Shown here one piece after another: positions 7,172-32,899 of a stretch of DNA of 44,209 bases. Both the position numbers and the translations under genes were made by a program. Source of the DNA: a virus; the IMG/VR virus record IMGVR_UViG_3300020233_000053, positions 1 to 44,209 of that record; one strand, 5' to 3'. The notes under the pieces are model-generated. The model had not been told where the DNA came from and made no database searches. It saw only the letters and a list, made by a program, of their open reading frames with translations. Within the stretch, counting starts at the first letter, position 1; every line of letters starts with the position of its first letter.

Positions 7172-8224
7172 ATGTATAAAGCGATAAAAAAACCAAACGG
7201 GAATTACGAAGTCTATAAAGACGGAAGCCGAATATCAACTACGATTGCTTCGGGACTTTCAAGGTTTGGATTATCTGAAACAAATCTCGGAGGAACAACC
7301 GTTCCCACAACTCAACCTGTTGCTCCGATAATCCAACAAACCCCTACAGGAAGTGTCCCGAAACCAACACCTCAATCAACACAACCCTCCCCAACAGGAA
7401 CAATTTATGACTTTAATAATGCGATAGTCAATAAAGATTACAACGCTCTTAATCAAATGGGAGTGGATACTTCGGCATATCAATCTGATACTCCTACCAA
7501 AACAGTAACCTTACCGAATGGGCAAGAAGTTCAGATTAACGATACTGGAGATATAGTTTCGGGACTTACAGATAATCAGACAAATATCCAGAATCAAGTA
7601 AATAATCAAACGACCGCCGCTCAACAAACTAATCCTTTCAAAAATGTTGTAGATGTCTTAGATAAAAGCGGATATAAACCTAATCCAGATTTAACCCCAG
7701 AAGATATAGCCGCTCTTGATCCTAAGAATTTTATGCAACAAGCGGAAGGACTTGTCGCTCCTTTCTATAAACAAGAATTTAATCAAGCAAAAACTGATTT
7801 TGGAAGAATACTTGACCAAATTAAAGGTACTTACGGAAGAAACGAACAGGATATCAACAGACAAACCGAACAGGCACAACTTACAGGAAGAGAATCTTTA
7901 GCAGGAAGAGGTCTTGCGTTTAGTGGACAGAGAAATACTTTTGAACAGAATACTCTAGACACTAAACAACGAGCAGAAGATCAAGCAAGACGTTTAGCTT
8001 TTAATCAAGCGGGAACAGTAGGTCGTTCACTTGAAAGACAATTAGGAACAGCAAATATAGGAGATTTACAAGCCCCACAAATAAATGGTCGGTCTTTGTT
8101 TAATTTTAGTCAAGAACCAGTAATTGGGACTTTGGAAAGACAAAGACTTTACGAGAAAAAGCAGATGGCAAGACAACTTTCTACGGATGCTGCAAGAAAG
8201 AGAGGTTATCTAGCATTTGCATAA
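7172..8224 (+). CDS. Putative internal virion / ejection protein
   Basis: 350 residues. A short N-terminal segment (MYKAIKKPNGNYEVYKDGSRIS) is followed by a Pro/Thr/Gln-rich low-complexity linker (about 45-75 and 125-150). A long helical, Arg/Gln-rich part (about 185-350) contains RESLAGRGLAFSGQRNTFEQ, a pattern I associate with structural proteins of podoviruses. No enzymatic motif. It is the first of four consecutive genes (to 13209) that share Pro/Gln-rich linkers and would fit proteins packed inside the capsid and ejected with DNA. Starts leaderless from its own promoter. Confidence 0.5.
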   Translation: MYKAIKKPNGNYEVYKDGSRISTTIASGLSRFGLSETNLGGTTVPTTQPVAPIIQQTPTGSVPKPTPQSTQPSPTGTIYDFNNAIVNKDYNALNQMGVDTSAYQSDTPTKTVTLPNGQEVQINDTGDIVSGLTDNQTNIQNQVNNQTTAAQQTNPFKNVVDVLDKSGYKPNPDLTPEDIAALDPKNFMQQAEGLVAPFYKQEFNQAKTDFGRILDQIKGTYGRNEQDINRQTEQAQLTGRESLAGRGLAFSGQRNTFEQNTLDTKQRAEDQARRLAFNQAGTVGRSLERQLGTANIGDLQAPQINGRSLFNFSQEPVIGTLERQRLYEKKQMARQLSTDAARKRGYLAFA

Positions 8225-8228
8225 AAAT

Positions 8229-9371
8229 ATGACACAAGATCAACCAAAAAACTTATACGAGTATTTTTCATCAAAAGGAAGAAACCTTCCTTCTTGGAAA
8301 GAACGTGCTCCTTTATACGAACAATTAGGACTTGGACGAGAGTCAGATTATGCTGGTTCAGAATCTCAGAACAATAAATTGCTTCAAGCATTAGTAACTA
8401 GTGGAGCAACGACTCCAACCAATACTCGCGCCTTAGCTTTTGGACAAGACCAACCGCCGGCTTCAACAAGTCTTCAACCTCAGACAGATGTTACAGGAAC
8501 ACAAGATTTAGGAACTTTACTTCAAAAACAATTAGTGGAAGCACTACAAGGAGGGAATAATCAACAGTTAGGAGGATTAGAGGCTCAAAGACAATCGCTT
8601 ATACGAAAGGAACTTACAGCGCCCGCCTATTCACAACAAGAGGGACAGATTCTAAGTCCTATGCAACAACTCTCGCTTATGAGGCAAAGAGGGAGTGAAT
8701 ACGAGCCATTACTTAAAGGAATAGAAACTCAAATAGCAGCTCTTAAACAAGGAAAGATAGATAAATTAACAGCACTTACACAAGTAGCAAATATAGCCAC
8801 TAAACTCGGAATGTTTGGAGGAAAAGAAGCACCTAAAACTTTACAAACCGATCAAGGAATTCTTCAATGGAATAAAGATACCGGTAAATGGGAAAAGACC
8901 GGATTTACAAAGACAGCTTCAGTTTCTCAATCTTCGTCTTCTCAGAAACCAGCAAGCACAGCACAATATAAATTTGCCAGTTTTGCTAAAAGATTAGTTC
9001 AATCTGAATCTCTTCTAAATAATCTTTATAAAAAATTAGAACAAGAAGGCTCCTTAAAGCAGTTATGGGAAAGAAATGCTCCTAACATTCTAACATCTAG
9101 TTTAATGCAACAAATTCAACAAGCAGAGAGAAACTTCTTGAATGCGAAACTTAGACAAGAATCTGGAGCTGCAATTGGAGCCGACGAATTTACAAATGGT
9201 CAGAAACAATACTTTGCAACGCCAGGAGATAGCCCAGAAGTTATAAAACAAAAAGAAGCGAATAGAAAATTGGTAATACAAAATATGATTAGATCAGCTG
9301 GTCCAGCTTATTCTCTTTCAGATAATTTACAAGGTCAAGAAATTAATAACGATCCATTAGGAATACGATAA
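8229..9371 (+). CDS. Putative internal virion protein
   Basis: 380 residues from ATG 8229, four bases after the previous stop; an in-frame ATG at 8217 inside the previous gene is less likely. N-terminus MTQDQPKNLYEYFSSKGRNLPSWKERAPLYEQLGLG (residues 1-36 read from the frame) and many Gln-rich helices. The C-terminal region AERNFLNAKLRQESGAAIGADEF..QKQYFATPGDSPEVIKQK is a motif I have seen in phage internal or coat-associated proteins (an LRKESGAAI-type box). No catalytic motif. Its last base is the first base of the next ATG. Confidence 0.5.
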   Translation: MTQDQPKNLYEYFSSKGRNLPSWKERAPLYEQLGLGRESDYAGSESQNNKLLQALVTSGATTPTNTRALAFGQDQPPASTSLQPQTDVTGTQDLGTLLQKQLVEALQGGNNQQLGGLEAQRQSLIRKELTAPAYSQQEGQILSPMQQLSLMRQRGSEYEPLLKGIETQIAALKQGKIDKLTALTQVANIATKLGMFGGKEAPKTLQTDQGILQWNKDTGKWEKTGFTKTASVSQSSSSQKPASTAQYKFASFAKRLVQSESLLNNLYKKLEQEGSLKQLWERNAPNILTSSLMQQIQQAERNFLNAKLRQESGAAIGADEFTNGQKQYFATPGDSPEVIKQKEANRKLVIQNMIRSAGPAYSLSDNLQGQEINNDPLGIR

Positions 9372-19961: not shown

Positions 19962-20069
19962 ATGAAATATATATGCGAAAAATGTAAAAAGGAATGTGGA
20001 ATTATTTTTTATATCAAAGATATTAAAAAATGGATTTGTCAGAAGTGTTTCAAAAGTGTGGATAACTAA
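19962..20069 (+). CDS. Tiny zinc-ribbon protein
   Basis: 35 residues (MKYICEKCKKECG...KWICQKCFKSVDN) with two CxxC knuckles spaced as in rubredoxin-like zinc ribbons. Its stop lies inside the inverted DnaA box and spacer of the following promoter. Probably a metal-binding adaptor; target unknown. One of several CxxC microproteins in this genome. Confidence 0.6.
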   Translation: MKYICEKCKKECGIIFYIKDIKKWICQKCFKSVDN

Positions 20070-20105
20070 CTTGATTTTTTGAAAAAAATTATATATACTA
20101 TAAAT
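20057..20105 (+). promoter_or_regulatory. Promoter with inverted DnaA box, upstream of the queuosine-type operon
   Basis: TGTGGATAA at 20057-20065, TTGATT at 20071-20076, 17-base spacer, TATACT at 20094-20099. The expected start is near 20106, giving a leader of about 30 bases that contains GGTCGCATT before ATG 20136. The first 26 bases equal those at 15426-15451. Confidence 0.75.
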
Positions 20106-20135: not shown

Positions 20136-20552
20136 ATGACAACTAAATTTTATTTTACTCCTTTAAAAAAAAGAGTAAAAATTGAAAAAGAGTTAACAGT
20201 TTCGGTTCTTAAAAGAGGTATATATCTTTCAAGACAAACTTTAATTACGTTAGGAAATTTTGGAGAACCATTTCATATTTTCCTATATGAAGATATAGCA
20301 AAAAAAGCCTTAGCATTTCAAATTAAAAGAATTGAAGGACCTTTAATAAGAGATTCAAATAAAAGACTCATAACTCCAATAAAGACCAATAATACAAAAT
20401 CATTTCATGCTTTTGTTGGAATTAAACCGTTCTTAGAACTTTTACCAGATATTAAAATTCCTCAAAAAAACCTACCACTAAAAAAATATAACGATACTTC
20501 TTTTAGTGGAGCAGGCGAAGTTTACTATTTTCAACTTAAAACATTAAAATGA
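20136..20552 (+). CDS. Unknown first gene of the 7-deazaguanine operon
   Basis: 138 residues, soluble, mixed alpha/beta, with no known motif. Contains RGIYLSRQTLITLGNFGEPF and FHIFLYEDIAKKALAFQIKR, an arrangement like an AbrB/SpoVT or double-psi-barrel style DNA-binding strand pair, but I would not rely on that. Overlaps queD by 4 bases (ATGA), so it is co-translated with the modification genes and may regulate or assist them. Confidence 0.45.
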   Translation: MTTKFYFTPLKKRVKIEKELTVSVLKRGIYLSRQTLITLGNFGEPFHIFLYEDIAKKALAFQIKRIEGPLIRDSNKRLITPIKTNNTKSFHAFVGIKPFLELLPDIKIPQKNLPLKKYNDTSFSGAGEVYYFQLKTLK

Positions 20553-20944
20553 AATTAAAATTACGACATCATTTTGACGCAGCTCACCGACTAGAGTTTC
20601 ATAAAGGTCTTTGTAGAAATCTTCACGGTCATCGTTGGGATGTGTTGATTGAAATCGAGCAAGAAGAAGTTGAGAATATGATTCTTGATTTTGGAGAGAT
20701 TAAAAAAATAATAGATGAATATGACCACTCCTGTATTCTAAGCTCCACACCAGAAAACCACGATTTATTAACTTTATTATATAAAATGGAGTTAAGAGTT
20801 ATACATTTTAACGATCCACCTACTGCTGAAAATCTCGTGAGAGCAATCCATGGAAATTTACAAGAAATCTTACCATTACAAACAAAATTAAAAGTAACAT
20901 TATGGGAAAGTCCTGGAGCGGGAATTTCTTATGAAAAAATATGA
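20549..20944 (+). CDS. queD: 6-carboxy-tetrahydropterin synthase QueD
   Basis: 131 residues, normal length. Zinc ligands His13 (FDAAHRL), His26 and His28 (LHGH); catalytic Cys22 (LCRNLHGH); DHS at 59-61; PTAEN at 91-95; and LWESP with Glu120. The enzyme turns dihydroneopterin triphosphate (made by FolE) into 6-carboxytetrahydropterin. In bacteria this feeds queuosine, in phages the 7-deazaguanine base for DNA. Overlaps the gene before and the gene after by 4 bases each. Confidence 0.92.
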   Translation: MKLKLRHHFDAAHRLEFHKGLCRNLHGHRWDVLIEIEQEEVENMILDFGEIKKIIDEYDHSCILSSTPENHDLLTLLYKMELRVIHFNDPPTAENLVRAIHGNLQEILPLQTKLKVTLWESPGAGISYEKI

Positions 20945-21594
20945 AAATATCTGAACTTTTTTACTCAATACAAGGCGAAGGAAAAACAGTAGGTAAACCG
21001 GCGATTTTTATTAGATTTGCCGGATGCAACCTTAGATGTAATTTTTGTGATAGTAAATATACTTGGAATATCAACGAAAGTGAAGAAGTAGAATTTGACG
21101 AAGTAATTGCCAGGATTAAAATAATTAACTGTAAACATATTATTTTTACAGGAGGAGAACCATTACTTCGAGAGCAAATTATTTATAAAATAATAAATAA
21201 TTTATCTCAAGAATATACTTACGAAATTGAAACAAATGGAACTATTCAACCTAAATATCCTTTTGGAAGAATTCAATTTAATGTTTCTCCTAAATTAGAA
21301 AATTCAGGTAATCCAAAAGAACTTAGAGAAAAAGCATACTGTTATAAATTTTTTAAAGACAAGAATGCTATCTTTAAATTTGTCATAGATAAAGAATCAG
21401 ACTTAGAAGAGGTTCTCAAAATAATTGCAACACATTGTTTATCAAATGAAAAAATTTATTTAATGCCAGAAGGAGTTGATCCAGAAATAATTAAAGAAAA
21501 AACAAAATGGGTCGTTGAAATTTGTAAGCGTTATAATTTTAATTTTTCTCCGAGAATGCATATTAGTATCTGGGGAAACAAAAGAGCAATATGA
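20941..21594 (+). CDS. queE: 7-carboxy-7-deazaguanine synthase QueE (radical SAM)
   Basis: 217 residues. Cluster-binding CNLRCNFC (Cys29, Cys33, Cys36; CX3CX2C), upstream SIQGEGKTVGKPAIFIRFAG as in QueE, SAM-binding FTGGEPLLRE (71-74 GGEP), and a short C-terminus typical of QueE. It contracts the pterin ring of 6-carboxytetrahydropterin to 7-carboxy-7-deazaguanine, the substrate of QueC. ATGA overlaps with queD and with the next gene. Confidence 0.92.
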   Translation: MKISELFYSIQGEGKTVGKPAIFIRFAGCNLRCNFCDSKYTWNINESEEVEFDEVIARIKIINCKHIIFTGGEPLLREQIIYKIINNLSQEYTYEIETNGTIQPKYPFGRIQFNVSPKLENSGNPKELREKAYCYKFFKDKNAIFKFVIDKESDLEEVLKIIATHCLSNEKIYLMPEGVDPEIIKEKTKWVVEICKRYNFNFSPRMHISIWGNKRAI

Positions 21595-23306
21595 AAATAA
21601 CACTAGAACAACTTATCAAAGATAGTAAAGAATTGGCAAGTCAAATTCCAAACGGAAAATACGAATCTATTTATGGAGTCCCTGCTGGAGGAATTTTACC
21701 AGCGTATGTAATTGCTGAAGAATTATGGTTGCCTCTCGTAGACGAGCCAGAAGAAGGTACTTTGATTGTAGATGATTTAGTTGATAGTGGTAAAACTCTT
21801 AAAAATCTAGATTGTGGTCTTGATACAGCTACACTTTATATTAAATCTCACAGCCCTAGACCCACTCACTATTTAGAACAAGTTGAAGGTTGGATAGATT
21901 TACCGCACGATAAAGAAACAGACTCCGAAGATTTAATTGTAAGAATGTTTGAGAAAATAGGAGAAAATCCGAATCGCGAAGGACTTTTAGATACACCTAA
22001 ACGAGTAGTTAAAATGTGGGAAGAAATCTTCCGAGGATATGACGAAAGTCAAAAACCTAAGATTACGGTTTTTGACAATGATACAGATGGAATCAAATAT
22101 GACCAAATGATTTTGGATTCAGGGAATTATTATAGTCAATGTTTAGTAGGAGATACTCAAATAAGAACTACTAAAGGAATTTTTAAGATAAAGGATTTGG
22201 TAGGAAAAAATGAAGATGTATTTTGTTATGATGAAAAGAATAAAAAATTTACAATTTCGCGGGCTACAAAAATAGAAAAGAAAAAAAGGAACGCAGAAGT
22301 TTGGAAATTAACAACCGAAACGAATACTATTTATGCTACGCCAGACCATAAATTTCTAACTTATACTAATGGATGGGTAATGTTAAAAGATTTGAAGCCA
22401 AACGATAGTTTGGTAGTTTTGAATTCTGTTTTAAGTGATAATTATATTAGTGTTCAGTTTCAGAAATCTCAGAATGGTTGGAAAAAAGAGCATCAGTTTA
22501 TTTATGAAGAAATGAAAAAGAAAAAAATAAAAAAAGGGCAAGTAATTCACCATATTGATTGTAATAAATTAAACAATAATATAGATAATTTATTAGTTTT
22601 ATCAAATAAGAAACATATAAGTTTACATTCAAAAATGTTTCAAGAATCACTATCTATTAAAGAAAAATCAGAAAGAGGAAAATGCGCCAATAGAGGATTT
22701 GTAAATTTGAAATATACTAATCCTGAAAAATTTAATGAAGTTAGAAAAAGAGCATCAAAGTCATTGAAAAATACTTATAAAACTGAGAAAGGTAAAAAAA
22801 TAAGAAAGAAAAAAAGTATTTTTATGACAAAATTATGGAAACAAAGAAAAGATGAACAAAAAATGGCTAATCATAGAGTTATTAGAACAGAATTTTATGG
22901 GTATGAAGATGTTTATTGTATGGATGTGAAAAAATATCACAATTTCGTTGCAAATGAAATGATAGTGCATAACTGCGAACATCATATGGTGCCATTTTTT
23001 GGAAAATATAACTTTGCATATATTCCTAATAAAAAGATTCTCGGATTAAGTAAAGTTGCAAGAATTGTTCAATACTACTCAGCAAAACTTCAAGTTCAAG
23101 AAAGATTAACAAAAGAAATAGTAGATGAAATAGAAAAAGCAGTCCAGCCATTAGGAATAGCTCTTATTATGAAAGGTCGGCATCTTTGCAAAGAAATGAG
23201 AGGAATAAGAGATAAAGGAGAAATGATTACAAGCGAAATGAGAGGGGTTTTTAAAGAAAAACCTGAAACACGAATGGAGTTCTTGAGATTATTAAATGTT
23301 AATTAA
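21591..23306 (+). CDS. folE: Phosphoribosyltransferase-GTP cyclohydrolase I fusion interrupted by an intein
   Basis: 571 residues: PRTase-like (about 1-105), FolE N-half (about 110-183), intein (184-461), FolE C-half (462-571); 293 residues after splicing. The first part has GVPAGGILPAYVIAEELWLP and the PRPP loop LIVDDLVDSGKTL. FolE starts with EDLIVRMFEKIGENPNREGLLDTPKRV and ends with CEHHMVPFFG (zinc Cys462, His464/465), VQERLTKEI and GRHLCKEMRG (zinc Cys533). FolE turns GTP to dihydroneopterin triphosphate, the first step to preQ0. The fused PRTase may salvage guanine/xanthine to feed GTP, or act on a deazapurine; both are inference. Confidence 0.88.
   Translation: MKITLEQLIKDSKELASQIPNGKYESIYGVPAGGILPAYVIAEELWLPLVDEPEEGTLIVDDLVDSGKTLKNLDCGLDTATLYIKSHSPRPTHYLEQVEGWIDLPHDKETDSEDLIVRMFEKIGENPNREGLLDTPKRVVKMWEEIFRGYDESQKPKITVFDNDTDGIKYDQMILDSGNYYSQCLVGDTQIRTTKGIFKIKDLVGKNEDVFCYDEKNKKFTISRATKIEKKKRNAEVWKLTTETNTIYATPDHKFLTYTNGWVMLKDLKPNDSLVVLNSVLSDNYISVQFQKSQNGWKKEHQFIYEEMKKKKIKKGQVIHHIDCNKLNNNIDNLLVLSNKKHISLHSKMFQESLSIKEKSERGKCANRGFVNLKYTNPEKFNEVRKRASKSLKNTYKTEKGKKIRKKKSIFMTKLWKQRKDEQKMANHRVIRTEFYGYEDVYCMDVKKYHNFVANEMIVHNCEHHMVPFFGKYNFAYIPNKKILGLSKVARIVQYYSAKLQVQERLTKEIVDEIEKAVQPLGIALIMKGRHLCKEMRGIRDKGEMITSEMRGVFKEKPETRMEFLRLLNVN
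22140..22973 (+). mobile_element. Intein with HNH homing endonuclease inside FolE
   Basis: 278 residues, first residue Cys (CLVGDTQIRT, block A), ATPDHKFLT (block B, TxxH), an HNH nuclease (VIHHIDCNKLNNNIDNLLVL), and the end VYCMDVKKYHNFVANEMIVH (block F) with a final Asn, followed by Cys of the host protein. All residues for splicing are there. It sits exactly before the zinc-binding CEHH of FolE, so the unspliced enzyme must be inactive. A mobile protein intron. Confidence 0.92.
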
Positions 23307-23311
23307 AAAAA

Positions 23312-23509
23312 ATGAGTAAAATTAAAAAATTTAGAGAATTAGTTATAGAAGGAAAAACAAGAGAAGAGGCCAGAGATATTAGTGGAGTAGCAGACGCTAC
23401 ATCAAAAATCCAAATCTACAAAATAAAAAAAGAAGGATTATTAAACAATAAACCAGAACCTAAAGTCGAAGATTCTGAAGATGTAACTATTGAAGAAACC
23501 AATGACTAA
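23312..23509 (+). CDS. Small HTH-like protein with acidic tail
   Basis: 65 residues. KKFRELVIEGKTREEARDIS and GVADATSKIQIYKIKKEGLL form a helix-turn-helix-like basic part, then a Glu/Asp-rich tail. It overlaps QueC by 8 bases. Start is 5 bases after the FolE stop. Could regulate the operon or be a small partner; no family recognised. Confidence 0.5.
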   Translation: MSKIKKFRELVIEGKTREEARDISGVADATSKIQIYKIKKEGLLNNKPEPKVEDSEDVTIEETND

Positions 23510-24209
23510 AGCAATTTGTGTTTTAAGTGGAGGAATGGATTCAACCACTCTTCTATATAAGCTCTTAGATGAAGGTAAAGAAGTAAAAGCAATCTCTTTT
23601 AATTATGGCCAGAGACATAAAAGAGAATTAGAAGAAGCTAAAAAGACCTGTGCTTCTTTGGGAGTAGAACATAAAATAGTGGAACTAGATTTTATGCGAG
23701 ATTTATGTTCTAATTCAGCTCTTACTGGAGATATTGATGTTCCTTATGGACATTATGAGGCAGAAAATATGAAACAAACAGTAACACCAAATAGAAATAT
23801 GATTATGGCTTCTATTGCTATTGGATGGGCAGTCAACGAAGAATTTGACGAAGTAGCTCTAGGAGTTCATGCTGGAGATCACGCTATTTATCCAGACTGT
23901 AGACCTATGTTCATAAATTGTCTAGAAAACATCGCACAAACAGCAAACTTTAGGTCAATTAAAATATATACTCCTTTTTTGAATATAGATAAAGGAGATA
24001 TAGCAATTGAGGGTAAAAAATTAGGAGTAGATTATTCCTCAACGCATACTTGTTATGAGGGAAGAGAAATTCCTTGCGGAAAATGCGGAGCTGATATGGA
24101 AAGATATGAAGCATTTTTGAAAGCAGGAATGAAAGATCCTCTATATTCAGACGAACAATGGATTAAAGTAGGAGAAAATTATAGAGAAATGAAAAAGACA
24201 GGTGTGTAG
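23502..24209 (+). CDS. queC: 7-cyano-7-deazaguanine synthase QueC
   Basis: 235 residues from ATG 23502 (a TTG-type start at 23490 is possible but poor). PP-loop VLSGGMDST (Ser9-Thr15), FNYGQRH, GDIDVPYGHYEAENM, TPNRNMIMASIAIGWA and HAGDH as in QueC. It converts 7-carboxy-7-deazaguanine to preQ0 with ATP and ammonia. Zinc site: Cys184, Cys192, Cys195, but the fourth position (usually Cys) is Asp198 in CGKCGADME. Last member of the preQ0 pathway before the transglycosylase. Confidence 0.92.
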   Translation: MTKAICVLSGGMDSTTLLYKLLDEGKEVKAISFNYGQRHKRELEEAKKTCASLGVEHKIVELDFMRDLCSNSALTGDIDVPYGHYEAENMKQTVTPNRNMIMASIAIGWAVNEEFDEVALGVHAGDHAIYPDCRPMFINCLENIAQTANFRSIKIYTPFLNIDKGDIAIEGKKLGVDYSSTHTCYEGREIPCGKCGADMERYEAFLKAGMKDPLYSDEQWIKVGENYREMKKTGV

Positions 24210-24224
24210 AATGAATAATTGCTA

Positions 24225-24236
24225 TATAATAACTAT
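24225..24236 (+). promoter_or_regulatory. -10 box of the homing nuclease gene, leaderless
   Basis: TATAAT at 24225-24230, seven bases before the A of ATG 24237. The -35 region (GTGTGT at 24202-24207) is poor, so this may be a weak or activator-dependent promoter that came with the element. Confidence 0.45.
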
Positions 24237-24866
24237 ATGGCACCACCCAAAGGACATATTCCTTGGAATAAAGGAAAAACTGGAATTTATTCACTTGAGA
24301 CAAGAAAAAGAATAAGCATAGGAAATAAAGGTAAAATATCTCCTATGAAAGGGAAGCATCATACCAAAGAAACTAAGAAATTACTCAGTGATAAGTTTAA
24401 AATTATTGCCAAACAAAAAGGTTTTGGAAAATGGATGAAAGGTAGAAAAAATACTCCTTTTCTCTTGGGACATAAAAAAGTAGCAGAATTTAGAAAAGGA
24501 AAAACTTATAAAGAAATTTATGGAGAAAGAGCAAGAGAAGAAGCTTTAAAAAGAAAAATAAGTAATAGAAATCGTTGGAAAAATAGAAAGAGAAGTGAAG
24601 TTAGATTAAAACATAATGCTGATTATAGATATAATGAATGGAGAAAATTTGTTTTTGAAAGAGATAATTATATTTGTCAGAAATGTAAAGAAAAGGGTCG
24701 TTTAGAAGCTCATCATATTCTTAGTTGGAAAAATTATCCTGAATTGAGATATGAATTAAATAACGGTATTACTTTATGCCTAGCTCATCATCCAAGAAAA
24801 AGAGCTGAAGAAAAACAATTAGCTTCATTTTTTATGAATCTAATTGAAACAAAAGCAGAATTTTGA
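24237..24866 (+). CDS. Free-standing HNH homing endonuclease with NUMOD3 motifs
   Basis: 209 residues from ATG 24237. N-terminal PWNKGKTGIYSLETRKRIS and a second GKHHTKETKKLLSD unit are NUMOD3 DNA-binding repeats of homing enzymes. The C-terminal HNH carries CQKCKEKGRLEAHHILSW and NNGITLCLAHHPRKR. It lies between queC and the transglycosylase gene, whose TTG start overlaps its stop (TTGA). As a selfish element it could spread between related phages; it does not interrupt a gene here. Confidence 0.82.
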   Translation: MAPPKGHIPWNKGKTGIYSLETRKRISIGNKGKISPMKGKHHTKETKKLLSDKFKIIAKQKGFGKWMKGRKNTPFLLGHKKVAEFRKGKTYKEIYGERAREEALKRKISNRNRWKNRKRSEVRLKHNADYRYNEWRKFVFERDNYICQKCKEKGRLEAHHILSWKNYPELRYELNNGITLCLAHHPRKRAEEKQLASFFMNLIETKAEF

Positions 24867-25648
24867 AATTATTTTTTGCAGGAGCTGAGCCAAAACAAAC
24901 ACGCCGACTTTTAAAAGAATGTAATGCTAATAAATTTCTTGTTTCTTATTATTCTTTTAGAAAGCAAGACGATTTAACTAATGAAGATGTTTTTCTTGAC
25001 TCAGGAGCTTTTACTGCGTTCACTCAAAATAAAGAAATCGATATTCAAAAATATATAGGGTATTTAAAAAAACATAAAGAAAAATTTTCTGTATACGCCA
25101 ATCTAGATGTTATAGGAGATCCTGAAGCTACTTTAAAAAATCAACAAATAATAGAAAAAGCTGGATTAAATCCTCTTCCTACTTTTCATTATGGTTCAGA
25201 CATCAAGTATCTTAGAAACTATATTGACAATTATGGTTATATTGCCTTAGGAGGACTAGTTCCTTTAACACGGAAACCTGTTGAGCTTATTAATTGGCTA
25301 AATTATTGTTTTTCTTTCTTGATTAAACCAATTAAAGAAAAAGGACTCAAAATACACGGTCTTGGAATGACAAGTAGTAAGATTTTAATTAAATATCCTT
25401 TTTATAGCGTAGACGGAACTTCTTGGTTATGTGGCGCTAAATTCGGAACTGTAATTAAGTGGGAGAAATATAAAATGCAGGGAGCAATACATTTGAGTCA
25501 TAAAGAAAAATTTATTGAAGCTGGTTTAAATTTAAAACTTGCAGAAAACGATAACGAGAAATCTAAACATAATATAATAGAATTTCTTAAAATGGAAAAA
25601 GACATTACAGAACTTTGGAAGAAAAGAGGAATTGAATGGAAAGACTAG
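24863..25648 (+). CDS. dpdA: DpdA-like DNA transglycosylase (TGT fold)
   Basis: 261 residues, TTG start overlapping the homing gene stop. LFFAGAEPKQTRRLLKECN opens it. FLDSGAFTAF (Asp46) matches the DSGGF motif of tRNA-guanine transglycosylases; NLDVIGDPEATLKNQ follows, then PTFHYGSD, ALGGLVPL (GG as in the TGT loop), IHGLGMTS and SVDGTSW (a further Asp for catalysis). Phage DpdA proteins exchange guanine in DNA for a 7-deazaguanine such as preQ0. No zinc site of tRNA enzymes is visible. With FolE, QueD, QueE and QueC just upstream, this completes a DNA-modification pathway. Alternative: tRNA TGT, less likely. Confidence 0.75.
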   Translation: MKLFFAGAEPKQTRRLLKECNANKFLVSYYSFRKQDDLTNEDVFLDSGAFTAFTQNKEIDIQKYIGYLKKHKEKFSVYANLDVIGDPEATLKNQQIIEKAGLNPLPTFHYGSDIKYLRNYIDNYGYIALGGLVPLTRKPVELINWLNYCFSFLIKPIKEKGLKIHGLGMTSSKILIKYPFYSVDGTSWLCGAKFGTVIKWEKYKMQGAIHLSHKEKFIEAGLNLKLAENDNEKSKHNIIEFLKMEKDITELWKKRGIEWKD

Positions 25649-25700
25649 TTATCCACACTTCATACTTGATTTTTTAAGAAAAAAAATATATAATATAAGT
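25649..25700 (+). promoter_or_regulatory. Promoter with DnaA box, leaderless
   Basis: TTATCCACA at 25649-25657, TTGATT at 25666-25671, 17-base spacer, TATAAT at 25689-25694, ATG at 25701 on the expected +1. The box overlaps the end of the dpdA gene region. The 31 bases from 25646 are identical to those from 26855. Confidence 0.8.
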
Positions 25701-26036: not shown

Positions 26037-26215
26037 AAATTAAAAAAACAATTCAAATAAAAACAATAAAAGAATATATCTTAGATGATATAGAAGCAAA
26101 AGAAATTCGTACATGTCTTGATTACTGTTTTCACCGAATGACAAAACATTATTCGTGTGGTTTACCGATAAATCTAGAAGAACTTAATAGATTAAGGAGA
26201 GAATTACGAAAATGA
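26033..26215 (+). CDS. Small basic protein, unknown
   Basis: 60 residues, ATGA overlaps on both sides. Includes EAKEIRTCLDYCFHRMTKHYSCGLPINL with three Cys and two His, perhaps a metal site, and a basic tail. Function unknown. Co-translated with the ParB-like protein. Confidence 0.5.
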   Translation: MKIKKTIQIKTIKEYILDDIEAKEIRTCLDYCFHRMTKHYSCGLPINLEELNRLRRELRK

Positions 26216-26853
26216 ATAACTTTACAACTCAAAAAATAGAAGTAGAAATAAAATTAGTCGAGCCAAATCCTTGGAATCCAAATCTTCAAACCGATTTTAT
26301 CTTTAGAAAAGAAATAGAATCAATTAAAAAGTTCGGATTACTTGGCTCAATACTTGTAAGAGAAGTTGCAGGAATTTATCAAATCTTAGATGGTGAGCAT
26401 CGATGGAAAGCTTGCAAAGAATTAGGATATACAAAAATTCAAGTAGAGACATTAGGAGAGATTCCTGATCAAGAAGCAAAAACATTAACCGTCTTACTTA
26501 ATAATCTTAGAGGAAAAGATGATATCGAAAAAAGAGCAGAAATTCTTAAACAACTCAGTGATGGGCAATTATCTTTACTCCCTTTTACCGAAGAAGAAAT
26601 AAATAACGAGAAAGCATTATTTGAATTTGATTTCAGTCAATACGATAAACAAGAAAAAATCGAAAAGCGAAAAATAGACAATACTCTTTGTTTCGGATTA
26701 ACAGAAAAAGAAAGAGAATTATGGAATAAAAGCTTGGCATTTGCTAAAAAGGAAGAAAATCTTAGCGATATTTCATTATTTCTAAAAATGCTTGAAGGAT
26801 ATTTAGAACTTAGATGTATAAGAGATAATAAAGGAAATTGGAAATTAGATTAG
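26212..26853 (+). CDS. ParB/Srx-domain protein
   Basis: 213 residues. KLVEPNPWNPNLQTDFIF, SIKKFGLLGSILVREV, YQILDGEHRWKACKELGYTK (Asp60-GEHR-64): the ParB N-terminal nuclease/CTPase-like core. C-terminal half is helical (LTEKERELWNKSLAFAKKEE) without a clear HTH. Phage ParB-like proteins can bind or nick DNA or regulate replication; no parA or centromere is seen, so plasmid-style partition is not supported. A promoter follows directly at its end. Confidence 0.7.
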   Translation: MNNFTTQKIEVEIKLVEPNPWNPNLQTDFIFRKEIESIKKFGLLGSILVREVAGIYQILDGEHRWKACKELGYTKIQVETLGEIPDQEAKTLTVLLNNLRGKDDIEKRAEILKQLSDGQLSLLPFTEEEINNEKALFEFDFSQYDKQEKIEKRKIDNTLCFGLTEKERELWNKSLAFAKKEENLSDISLFLKMLEGYLELRCIRDNKGNWKLD

Positions 26854-27982: not shown

Positions 27983-28312
27983 ATGAAAAAGAAATTTAGA
28001 GCGTGGGACGAATTTGATAAAAAAATGTCGTTTTGGACAATGAATGACTTATGTAATTACTGTCCAGACAGAGATAAACCAAGTTGTTTAGATGAATGGA
28101 TGCAATATATCGGTTTGTCGGACAAAAACGGAAAAGAGATTTGCGAATCAGATATACTAAAATTAATACGTAAAGGAAAAACATATATTGGCGTAGTTAA
28201 ATACTTTGAAGACTTCTGTAGTTTCCTACTTGAAGGAAAAGGTTTTAGAGTAGATATCTTTTCGGGCGATGAAATTATTGGAAATGTTCACGAAAATCCA
28301 AAACTTATATGA
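27983..28312 (+). CDS. YopX-family protein
   Basis: 109 residues. KKKFRAWDEFDKKMSFW at the start, MQYIGLSDKNGKEICESDIL in the middle and DEIIGNVHENPKLI at the end are the three signature blocks of the YopX family of phage proteins (beta barrel, role unknown). Extra CNYCPDRDKPSC insert may bind metal. Overlaps the next gene by 4 bases. Confidence 0.8.
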   Translation: MKKKFRAWDEFDKKMSFWTMNDLCNYCPDRDKPSCLDEWMQYIGLSDKNGKEICESDILKLIRKGKTYIGVVKYFEDFCSFLLEGKGFRVDIFSGDEIIGNVHENPKLI

Positions 28313-30572: not shown

Positions 30573-31079
30573 ATGAAAGCAAAAACATTATTAAAATTAA
30601 AAAAACATTTTTCAGTTCCCGTTTTTATTGTTGTTGAACAAAAATTAAAAGGATTGAAAAAAATAAAAGGTGCTAAATTTGCTGTTCGTTCATCAGCAGA
30701 TTGCGAAGACGGAAAAAAGTATTCTTGGGCTGGTATTTTTGAAAGTTATCTAGATGTTCCTAAAAATCAAATAAAAAATAAAATAGAATTAGTTAAAAAA
30801 TCCGCAAATTCTAATCGTGCCAAAATCTATGCCCAAAAAATAGGATATAAGAAAAAAATTAAAATTCGTGTTATAATACAAGAAATGATACAAGGGGACA
30901 CGGGAGTTTGTTTTACAGACACAATGACTTTTGAATCAAATCCGCCATTTTATTCTGTAGAATTAGAAAAGTTATGTAAAAAAGTTGAACAATTTATGGG
31001 ATGTTCACAAAACATTGAATGGATAAGAGATAATATGGGAAAGTTTTGGATTTTGCAATCAAGACCAATAACAAAATGA
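30573..31079 (+). CDS. Miniature PEP synthase / PPDK ATP-grasp domain
   Basis: 168 residues. FAVRSSADCEDGKKYSWAGI and FESYLDV (Arg39, the VRSSA..ED..AG..SYLNV block), VIIQEMIQGDTGVCFTD (substrate-linked lid), and a closing CSQNIEWIRDNMGKFWILQS followed by RPITK, which is exactly where the ATP domain of PEP synthase ends. About 100 residues found in full-length enzymes between the FTD block and the QSRP end are missing, so the fold is compact and activity is uncertain. The next gene encodes the phospho-histidine domain. Start context AAACTATG. Confidence 0.75.
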   Translation: MKAKTLLKLKKHFSVPVFIVVEQKLKGLKKIKGAKFAVRSSADCEDGKKYSWAGIFESYLDVPKNQIKNKIELVKKSANSNRAKIYAQKIGYKKKIKIRVIIQEMIQGDTGVCFTDTMTFESNPPFYSVELEKLCKKVEQFMGCSQNIEWIRDNMGKFWILQSRPITK

Positions 31080-31567
31080 TATTAAGTAAAGGGAAAATTA
31101 AAGGAATTATTGATAAGGATATTTTGGTTTGTAAAAAGACGACTCCAAAAATGATAGAGAAGATAATGCAATCTAAAGCGGTATTTGTTGAAGAAGGAGG
31201 ATTACTTTCTCACGCCTCAATAATTTGCCGAGAACTTAAAATACCGTGCGTAAGAATTGATAACGCAACAAAAATTTTCAAAAAAGGAACAGAAATAGTG
31301 GGACTTAATTGGATATATGGAGAAGTATTGAATGAAATAAATAAACTGGTTAAAAAATACGCCAATCCTGATTTCAAAGTCAACGGCGAACCCTTGGAAA
31401 AGATTGGAAAAATTATGATAGAAAAAATTCAAGATATTAAAATGGATAAAGATTGGTATAATCAAGTAAAGCAACCGATAGATTTATTCAGAACGGCAAA
31501 GGATAATTCCCAAAGGATGATAGCAATCAGTTGGATGGATAAGATAGTAAGGGCATCAAATTTATAG
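31076..31567 (+). CDS. PEP-utilising enzyme swivelling (phospho-His) domain protein
   Basis: 163 residues from ATG 31076, which overlaps the previous stop (ATGA); an upstream in-frame TTG at 31046 lies inside the neighbour and is rejected. VEEGGLLSHASIICRELKIP with His46 is the mobile phospho-histidine motif (GGxxSHAAIxARELxIP). C-terminus adds ~75 residues (NKLVKKYANPDFKVNGEPLE) that are not the PEP-binding TIM barrel, so PEP synthesis in the usual way is not possible from this pair alone. The TAG stop is the first triplet of the fifth boxA-like motif. Confidence 0.75.
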   Translation: MILSKGKIKGIIDKDILVCKKTTPKMIEKIMQSKAVFVEEGGLLSHASIICRELKIPCVRIDNATKIFKKGTEIVGLNWIYGEVLNEINKLVKKYANPDFKVNGEPLEKIGKIMIEKIQDIKMDKDWYNQVKQPIDLFRTAKDNSQRMIAISWMDKIVRASNL

Positions 31568-32853: not shown

Positions 32854-32899
32854 TTATCCACACTGTGATATATTATAAATAATTATCTATAATATATTT
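32854..32899 (+). promoter_or_regulatory. Promoter with DnaA box before the small terminase, leaderless
   Basis: TTATCCACA at 32854-32862, TATAAT at 32888-32893, ATG at 32900 on the expected +1. The -35 is poor (TGTGAT at 32864-32869), so the box protein may be needed to activate it. Confidence 0.65.

Follow-up and report, generated by a model that had tools for sequence, protein, structure and literature searches.

A probable phage dPreQ0-type modification operon encodes a widespread PRT-FolE fusion with a possible role in guanine recycling

Does the preQ0 operon of this virus modify the phage's own DNA, and what would a phosphoribosyltransferase (PRT) domain at the head of its FolE protein contribute? 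The window, a stretch of 44,209 bases with a GC content of 33.6%, is the entire IMG/VR record of an uncultivated virus, and its terminase, portal, capsid and tail-fibre matches identify a tailed phage. The genes for QueD, QueE, FolE, QueC and a TGT-fold protein run head to tail at 20549-25648 (Table 1), neighbouring operon genes overlapping by a few bases or nearly abutting. Because the family E-values of these five enzymes are so low (~1e-25 to 1e-67), chance family matches are excluded. An earlier note on this DNA had placed the five in one operon, which holds; the extent that it gave covers the enzyme genes, but the unit opens one gene earlier, at ORF 20136. Two items had been overlooked: the PRT domain at the N-terminus of FolE and a small ORF at 23312-23509. 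QueD matches TIGR03367 at 4.3e-21 with 75.1 bits, under the 89.25-bit cut-off, and QueC possesses the motifs SGGMDS and CX8CX2C. QueC was taken to start at the ATG at 23502, the listed TTG start being 23490, and the ATG at 24237 is the likely start of the NUMOD3-HNH gene. Rfam and tRNA scans gave no matches.

Table 1. Features of the preQ0 operon and its flanks, in window coordinates
Feature	Position	Strand	Evidence or remark
TGTGGATAA (DnaA-box consensus, reverse orientation), then sigma70-like promoter TTGATT-17-TATACT	20057..20099	+	box at 20057-20065
ORF 20136, 138-aa protein, no family match	20136..20552	+	first gene past promoter; 4-base overlap with queD
QueD, 6-carboxytetrahydropterin synthase	20549..20944	+	PF01242 (PTPS) 4.7e-25; phrog_2389
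QueE	20941..21594	+	phrog_2076 2e-56; cluster motif CNLRCNFC
FolE ORF, whole	21591..23306	+	TIGR00063 3.7e-54, two pieces, above cut-off
PRT domain (XGPRT family, ~110 aa), N-terminal part of FolE ORF	21591..21920	+	profile, model, fold match
FolE N-extein	21921..22139	+	PF01227 on aa 116-175
Intein, 278 aa, with HNH domain	22140..22973	+	PF14890 1.1e-22; HNH_3 2.8e-9; TIGR01445; TIGR01443
FolE C-extein (GTP cyclohydrolase I)	22974..23306	+	TIGR00063 3.7e-54; CEHH and HLC in alignment
65-aa ORF, no family match	23312..23509	+	overlaps QueC start
QueC, preQ0 synthase, 235 aa	23502..24209	+	PF06508 2.1e-65; TIGR00364 9.5e-60, above cut-off
Free-standing NUMOD3-HNH endonuclease gene, between queC and dpdA	24219..24866	+	PF07460 4.2e-8; PF01844 3.3e-5
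DpdA-like DNA-guanine transglycosylase, 261 aa	24863..25648	+	phrog_887 2.7e-55; clade; model
TTATCCACA box and promoter TTGATT-17-TATAAT, start of next unit	25649..25694	+	box count, promoter pattern
ParB-N domain protein	26212..26853	+	PF02195 9.2e-11; phrog_723 2.6e-25

The operon had also been described as driven by a DnaA-box promoter. Box and promoter are indeed present, but they sit before ORF 20136, and the box is one of seven genome-wide. Exact TTATCCACA boxes occur 7 times in the window, compared to 0.45 expected from dinucleotide shuffles; six of the seven have, 1, 5 or 8 bases downstream, a -35 of the TTGA type that is itself followed by a -10-like hexamer, and the seventh, at 32854, is followed by AT-rich sequence in which no clear -35 is seen. 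Only this box-promoter pairing exceeds chance, not the sigma70-like sequences alone, as a sigma70 scan of the region found 39 against 34.4 expected. The putative DnaA box is a promoter mark across the genome and is not specific to the preQ0 operon. Beyond dpdA, two small ORFs downstream, lies the ParB-N gene. A ParB-like gene adjoins dpdA in 18 of the 80 loci of one sample and in none of the 77 of the other, and PADLOC gave no DpdB match; the ParB-N protein is a possible partner of DpdA in a DpdB-like role.

The prediction that the last gene encodes a DpdA-like protein was borne out by phylogeny. A maximum-likelihood tree of the window protein, 43 further phage-type proteins and six TGTs places it among the phage DpdA proteins with a support of 100/99, leaving the TGTs outside. 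The window protein lacks the CXCX2C zinc motif that is present in all four bacterial TGTs used, a pattern that failed to pick up the zinc motif in the two archaeal TGTs of the tree set. Moreover, in 14 control genomes the phage DpdA profile phrog_887 had no match, whereas TGT was matched in every one of them. On these grounds a tRNA TGT identity was rejected, and an operon that supplies a queuosine precursor for host tRNA, with the last protein acting as tRNA TGT, is highly improbable, although the protein does have the TGT fold. Its AlphaFold model (pLDDT 92.9) adopts this fold at a Z score of 20, and the residues D46, D82, H109, H165 and D184 are invariant among 53 homologous sequences. Compared to tRNA TGT, the window protein shares the TIM-barrel fold and the DSG motif, but it is shorter and belongs to a separate clade. 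Nor does it have the extended C-terminal region of the Queuovirinae proteins. No Pfam model matched the protein, and a close-relative scan using the window sequence alone found nothing; the relatives were found with an 18-sequence profile. Against solved sequences, the family profile had a sole and weak match (E 0.0037), to the DNA-guanine transglycosylase 7ui4.

With FolE, QueD, QueE and QueC encoded beside a DpdA homologue distinct from tRNA TGT, the operon has the gene content of a dPreQ0-type system. As the earlier note had held, gat-queC and QueF-like genes are absent: Pfam scanning of about 50 ORFs found no QueF, ArcS or glutamine amidotransferase apart from a weak FolE-QueF cross-match, and the 235-residue QueC has no GAT (amidotransferase) domain. 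Cui et al. 2023 (NAR gkad657) reportedly describe further 7-deazaguanines in phages. According to PMC6884629, phage CAjan and Mycobacterium phage Rosebush likewise encode FolE, QueD, QueE, QueC and a phage-type DpdA, with no amidotransferase or QueF; dPreQ0 makes up 28-32% of G in their DNA, and deletion of dpdA in CAjan abolishes both dPreQ0 and the protection from restriction enzymes. The window differs from both in gene order, in the PRT domain and intein of its FolE, in the HNH gene before dpdA and in its short DpdA of 261 aa. Because its gene set equals theirs and holds no amidotransferase, dPreQ0 is the expected product in the window phage, which would make the modification system an already known one, that of the dPreQ0 phage group. 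Judged from these sequences, FolE, QueD, QueE and QueC very probably make preQ0 from GTP, and the phage DpdA would insert this base into the DNA of the phage in place of guanine, so that the resulting dPreQ0 blocks host restriction.

Both selfish elements previously noticed in the operon were recovered, namely the HNH intein in FolE and the free-standing NUMOD3-HNH gene. The intein spans aa 184-461 of the FolE ORF, with the junctions YSQ/C and HN/C. It has the features of a class-1 intein, including an N-terminal Cys, a C-terminal His-Asn, a +1 Cys nucleophile and intein domains. As the FolE zinc motif CEHH begins with this +1 Cys, FolE should be inactive until spliced; the precursor would thus first excise the intein at its zinc-binding cysteine. 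Similar insertions occur elsewhere: a homologous intein occupies the identical FolE site in locus L042, and the QueC gene of locus L085 carries another intein.

Residues 1-110 of the FolE ORF form a PRT domain of the xanthine-guanine PRTase (XGPRT) family. Its family profile retrieves the XGPRTs of E. coli and Yersinia and the PRTase of P. horikoshii at 1e-10 to 1e-11, with 3.4e-10 for E. coli XGPRT and 1.8e-11 for the P. horikoshii protein. In the model of the FolE ORF, the pLDDT is mostly above 90 across the PRT domain. Structural comparison placed E. coli XGPRT on top by Z (17.6), with the larger rmsd of the XGPRT matches arising because their alignment extends past the PRT domain; the P. 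horikoshii PRTase (1vdm) was superimposed with a Z of 16.2 and an rmsd of 2.0 A over 109 residues. The domain folds as a PRTase and has both the PPi loop and the PRPP loop. In the PRPP loop, D61, D62, G67 and T69 are present in at least 58 of 59 PRT copies, and base-side conservation extends to K85 (54/59 copies), W101, W106 and E107 in most of them. The window copy departs from the family at its terminal WE, with H106 and D107 where 57 of the 59 copies have W and E. Compared to E. coli XGPRT (Gpt) and the archaeal XGPRT-like PRTases, the family shares the fold, both loops, the lysine on the base side and a W-x-x-P-W-[DE] motif, whereas the domain is fused to FolE, measures only ~110 aa and has the flexible loop deleted. 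In the profile alignment about 22 residues are missing against XGPRT at this loop, and fused copies lack roughly 20; the GG-to-DD gap is mostly 21-32 in fused copies, compared to 45-56 in stand-alone ones. This loss may cripple catalysis.

The PRT-FolE fusion recurs with DpdA. It was found in 67 of 148 sampled phage loci with FolE and DpdA, comprising 37 of 71 FolE-bearing loci found via DpdA and 30 of 77 DpdA-bearing loci found via FolE, two samples with at least one contig in common. None of six FolE phage loci without a phage-type DpdA in the locus has the fusion, a contrast that rests on few DpdA-less loci, as the FolE scan of phages was led by a 9g-like sequence. On bacterial genome contigs, scanned with PRT-FolE as seed, the fusion occurs in 4 of 74 FolE loci, all four beside queD, queE or queC. 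Cultured Pseudomonas, Vibrio and Stenotrophomonas phages also have it, and two PRT queries matched 34 and 35 cultured-phage records. These matches lie on FolE, or beside FolE in one poorly annotated record, two Brevundimonas phages being the exceptions; in the records examined, PRT-FolE is annotated simply as GTP cyclohydrolase.

Among the closest architectures are eight uncultivated IMG/VR phages (L025, L027, L032, L038, L045, L054, L055 and L078), which share the order QueD-QueE-[PRT-FolE]-QueC-DpdA-ParB and have a DpdA roughly 40-45% identical to that of the window; unlike the window, no intein or HNH insert was found in their operons, and ParB follows DpdA directly. The Queuovirinae Nipunavirus phages NP1 and Quinobequin-P09, together with Pseudomonas phage PSASB_03, also combine PRT-FolE with DpdA. 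In NP1 an annotated homing endonuclease gene immediately precedes dpdA, as in the window, but its QueC is an amidotransferase-QueC, so dG+ is expected, and the FolE proteins of NP1 and PSASB_03 lack the intein. Quinobequin-P09 exists in culture and was part of the original study on dPreQ0. In loci L050 and L069, stand-alone XGPRT-like genes adjoin FolE and look like an unfused form of the fusion. Many DpdA phages, such as 9g, Skure, CA8 and RHEph04, have no PRT domain. In Brevundimonas phage StAshley, a PRT lies beside FolE with a dNMP kinase and a ribonucleotide reductase close by, and no phage-type DpdA was found in the whole record; PRT is therefore not tied to base exchange everywhere. The open-access papers searched yielded no description of the fusion, though an earlier mention elsewhere is possible. 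What appears to be new is the PRT-FolE fusion, which many relatives have as well; another unusual trait is the intein at the zinc site of FolE.

In TGT-type exchange, one free guanine is released per base inserted. DpdA should likewise release guanine, and because of this we propose that the PRT domain recycles it: guanine and PRPP would yield GMP, which host kinases would convert to GTP, and GTP is what the FolE part of this polypeptide uses as substrate. From domain identity and gene association, this role is a tentative one, at somewhat less than an even chance, and the complete account of dPreQ0 modification plus a guanine-recycling PRT-FolE is about evenly poised. Several observations weigh against recycling, including the loss of the loop in nearly all fused PRTs, the change of WE to HD in the window and the many DpdA phages without PRT; in addition, host Gpt or Hpt could already salvage the guanine. 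The main rival holds that PRT is a loop-less ligand sensor; on binding PRPP, GMP or some other guanine nucleotide, it would adjust FolE so as to spare the host GTP pool. Retention of the phosphate and PRPP loops in copies that have lost the flexible loop fits such a sensor, as does the existence of regulatory PRTase folds, with PyrR among the fold matches of PRT; yet most copies keep K85, W101, W106 and E107, as expected of an enzyme, and a stand-alone version with the loop adjoins FolE in L050, which makes a sensor unlikely on balance.

Rather less probable is a PRT that ribosylates preQ0 or another 7-deazaguanine to a nucleotide, opening a dNTP route parallel to DpdA. The StAshley cluster of FolE, PRT, dNMP kinase and ribonucleotide reductase, in a phage where phage-type DpdA was not found, would suit such a route, and PMC6884629 mentions that for Campylobacter phages a modified-dGTP route has been proposed; the fusion, however, overwhelmingly accompanies DpdA, an enzyme that inserts the base in free form, and no reductase or dNMP kinase was detected among the window ORFs scanned. 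It is also very improbable that the operon is inactive, with an intein that fails to splice or a dead DpdA amid decaying genes: apart from the missing WE motif of the window PRT, every ORF is open, the catalytic residues are preserved and those at the splice junctions are compatible with splicing.

Returning to guanine recycling, the PRT-FolE fusion would link DNA base exchange to purine supply. If recycling holds, the fate of the guanine released by DpdA would be explained, and the cost of replacing up to a third of the guanines would be met. A more doubtful extension is that many dPreQ0 and dG+ phages run a closed guanine cycle, in which the loop-less XGPRT is active only within the FolE complex; were this true, DNA modification would cost these phages little net purine.

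An additional divergent QueC-like gene adjoins QueC in the operon of three comparison loci (L052, L075 and L094), which may serve a further modification, and an intein interrupts QueC in a fourth (L085). DpdA-like genes form adjacent pairs in L034, L047 and L086, the members of which possibly differ in target sequence. In Brevundimonas phage StAshley, genes for a dNMP kinase and a ribonucleotide reductase lie close to the pair formed by FolE and a xanthine-guanine phosphoribosyltransferase (XGPRT)-like gene, and no phage-type DpdA was found across the entire record; this gene set suggests a possible nucleotide-level route to modified DNA.

In the window, two adjacent, overlapping ORFs resemble pyruvate phosphate dikinase/PEP synthase domains, with matches to the ATP-binding domain (PPDK_N, 4.7e-26) and the PEP-utiliser mobile domain; by these matches, the pair is a predicted short or split dikinase-like enzyme of a phage.

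Coordinates of the features
Feature	Locus	Position	Remark
TTATCCACA boxes	window	15426, 20057, 25649, 26858, 32248, 32854, 37901	exact matches
YopX-family protein	window	27983-28312	PF09643, 2e-16
Dikinase-like ORF pair	window	30573-31567	
XGPRT-like gene, stand-alone	StAshley (L099)	8040-9195	immediately 3' of FolE
QueC with intein	L085	4016-5719	

Exact copies of the DnaA-box consensus TTATCCACA number seven in the window, against 0.45 expected. Promoter-like sequence lies shortly downstream of six, and an AT-rich stretch follows the remaining one. The gap to the -35 element is 5 bases for two reverse-oriented boxes and 8 bases for three forward-oriented ones. The box and promoter together may represent a class of DnaA-responsive phage promoters.
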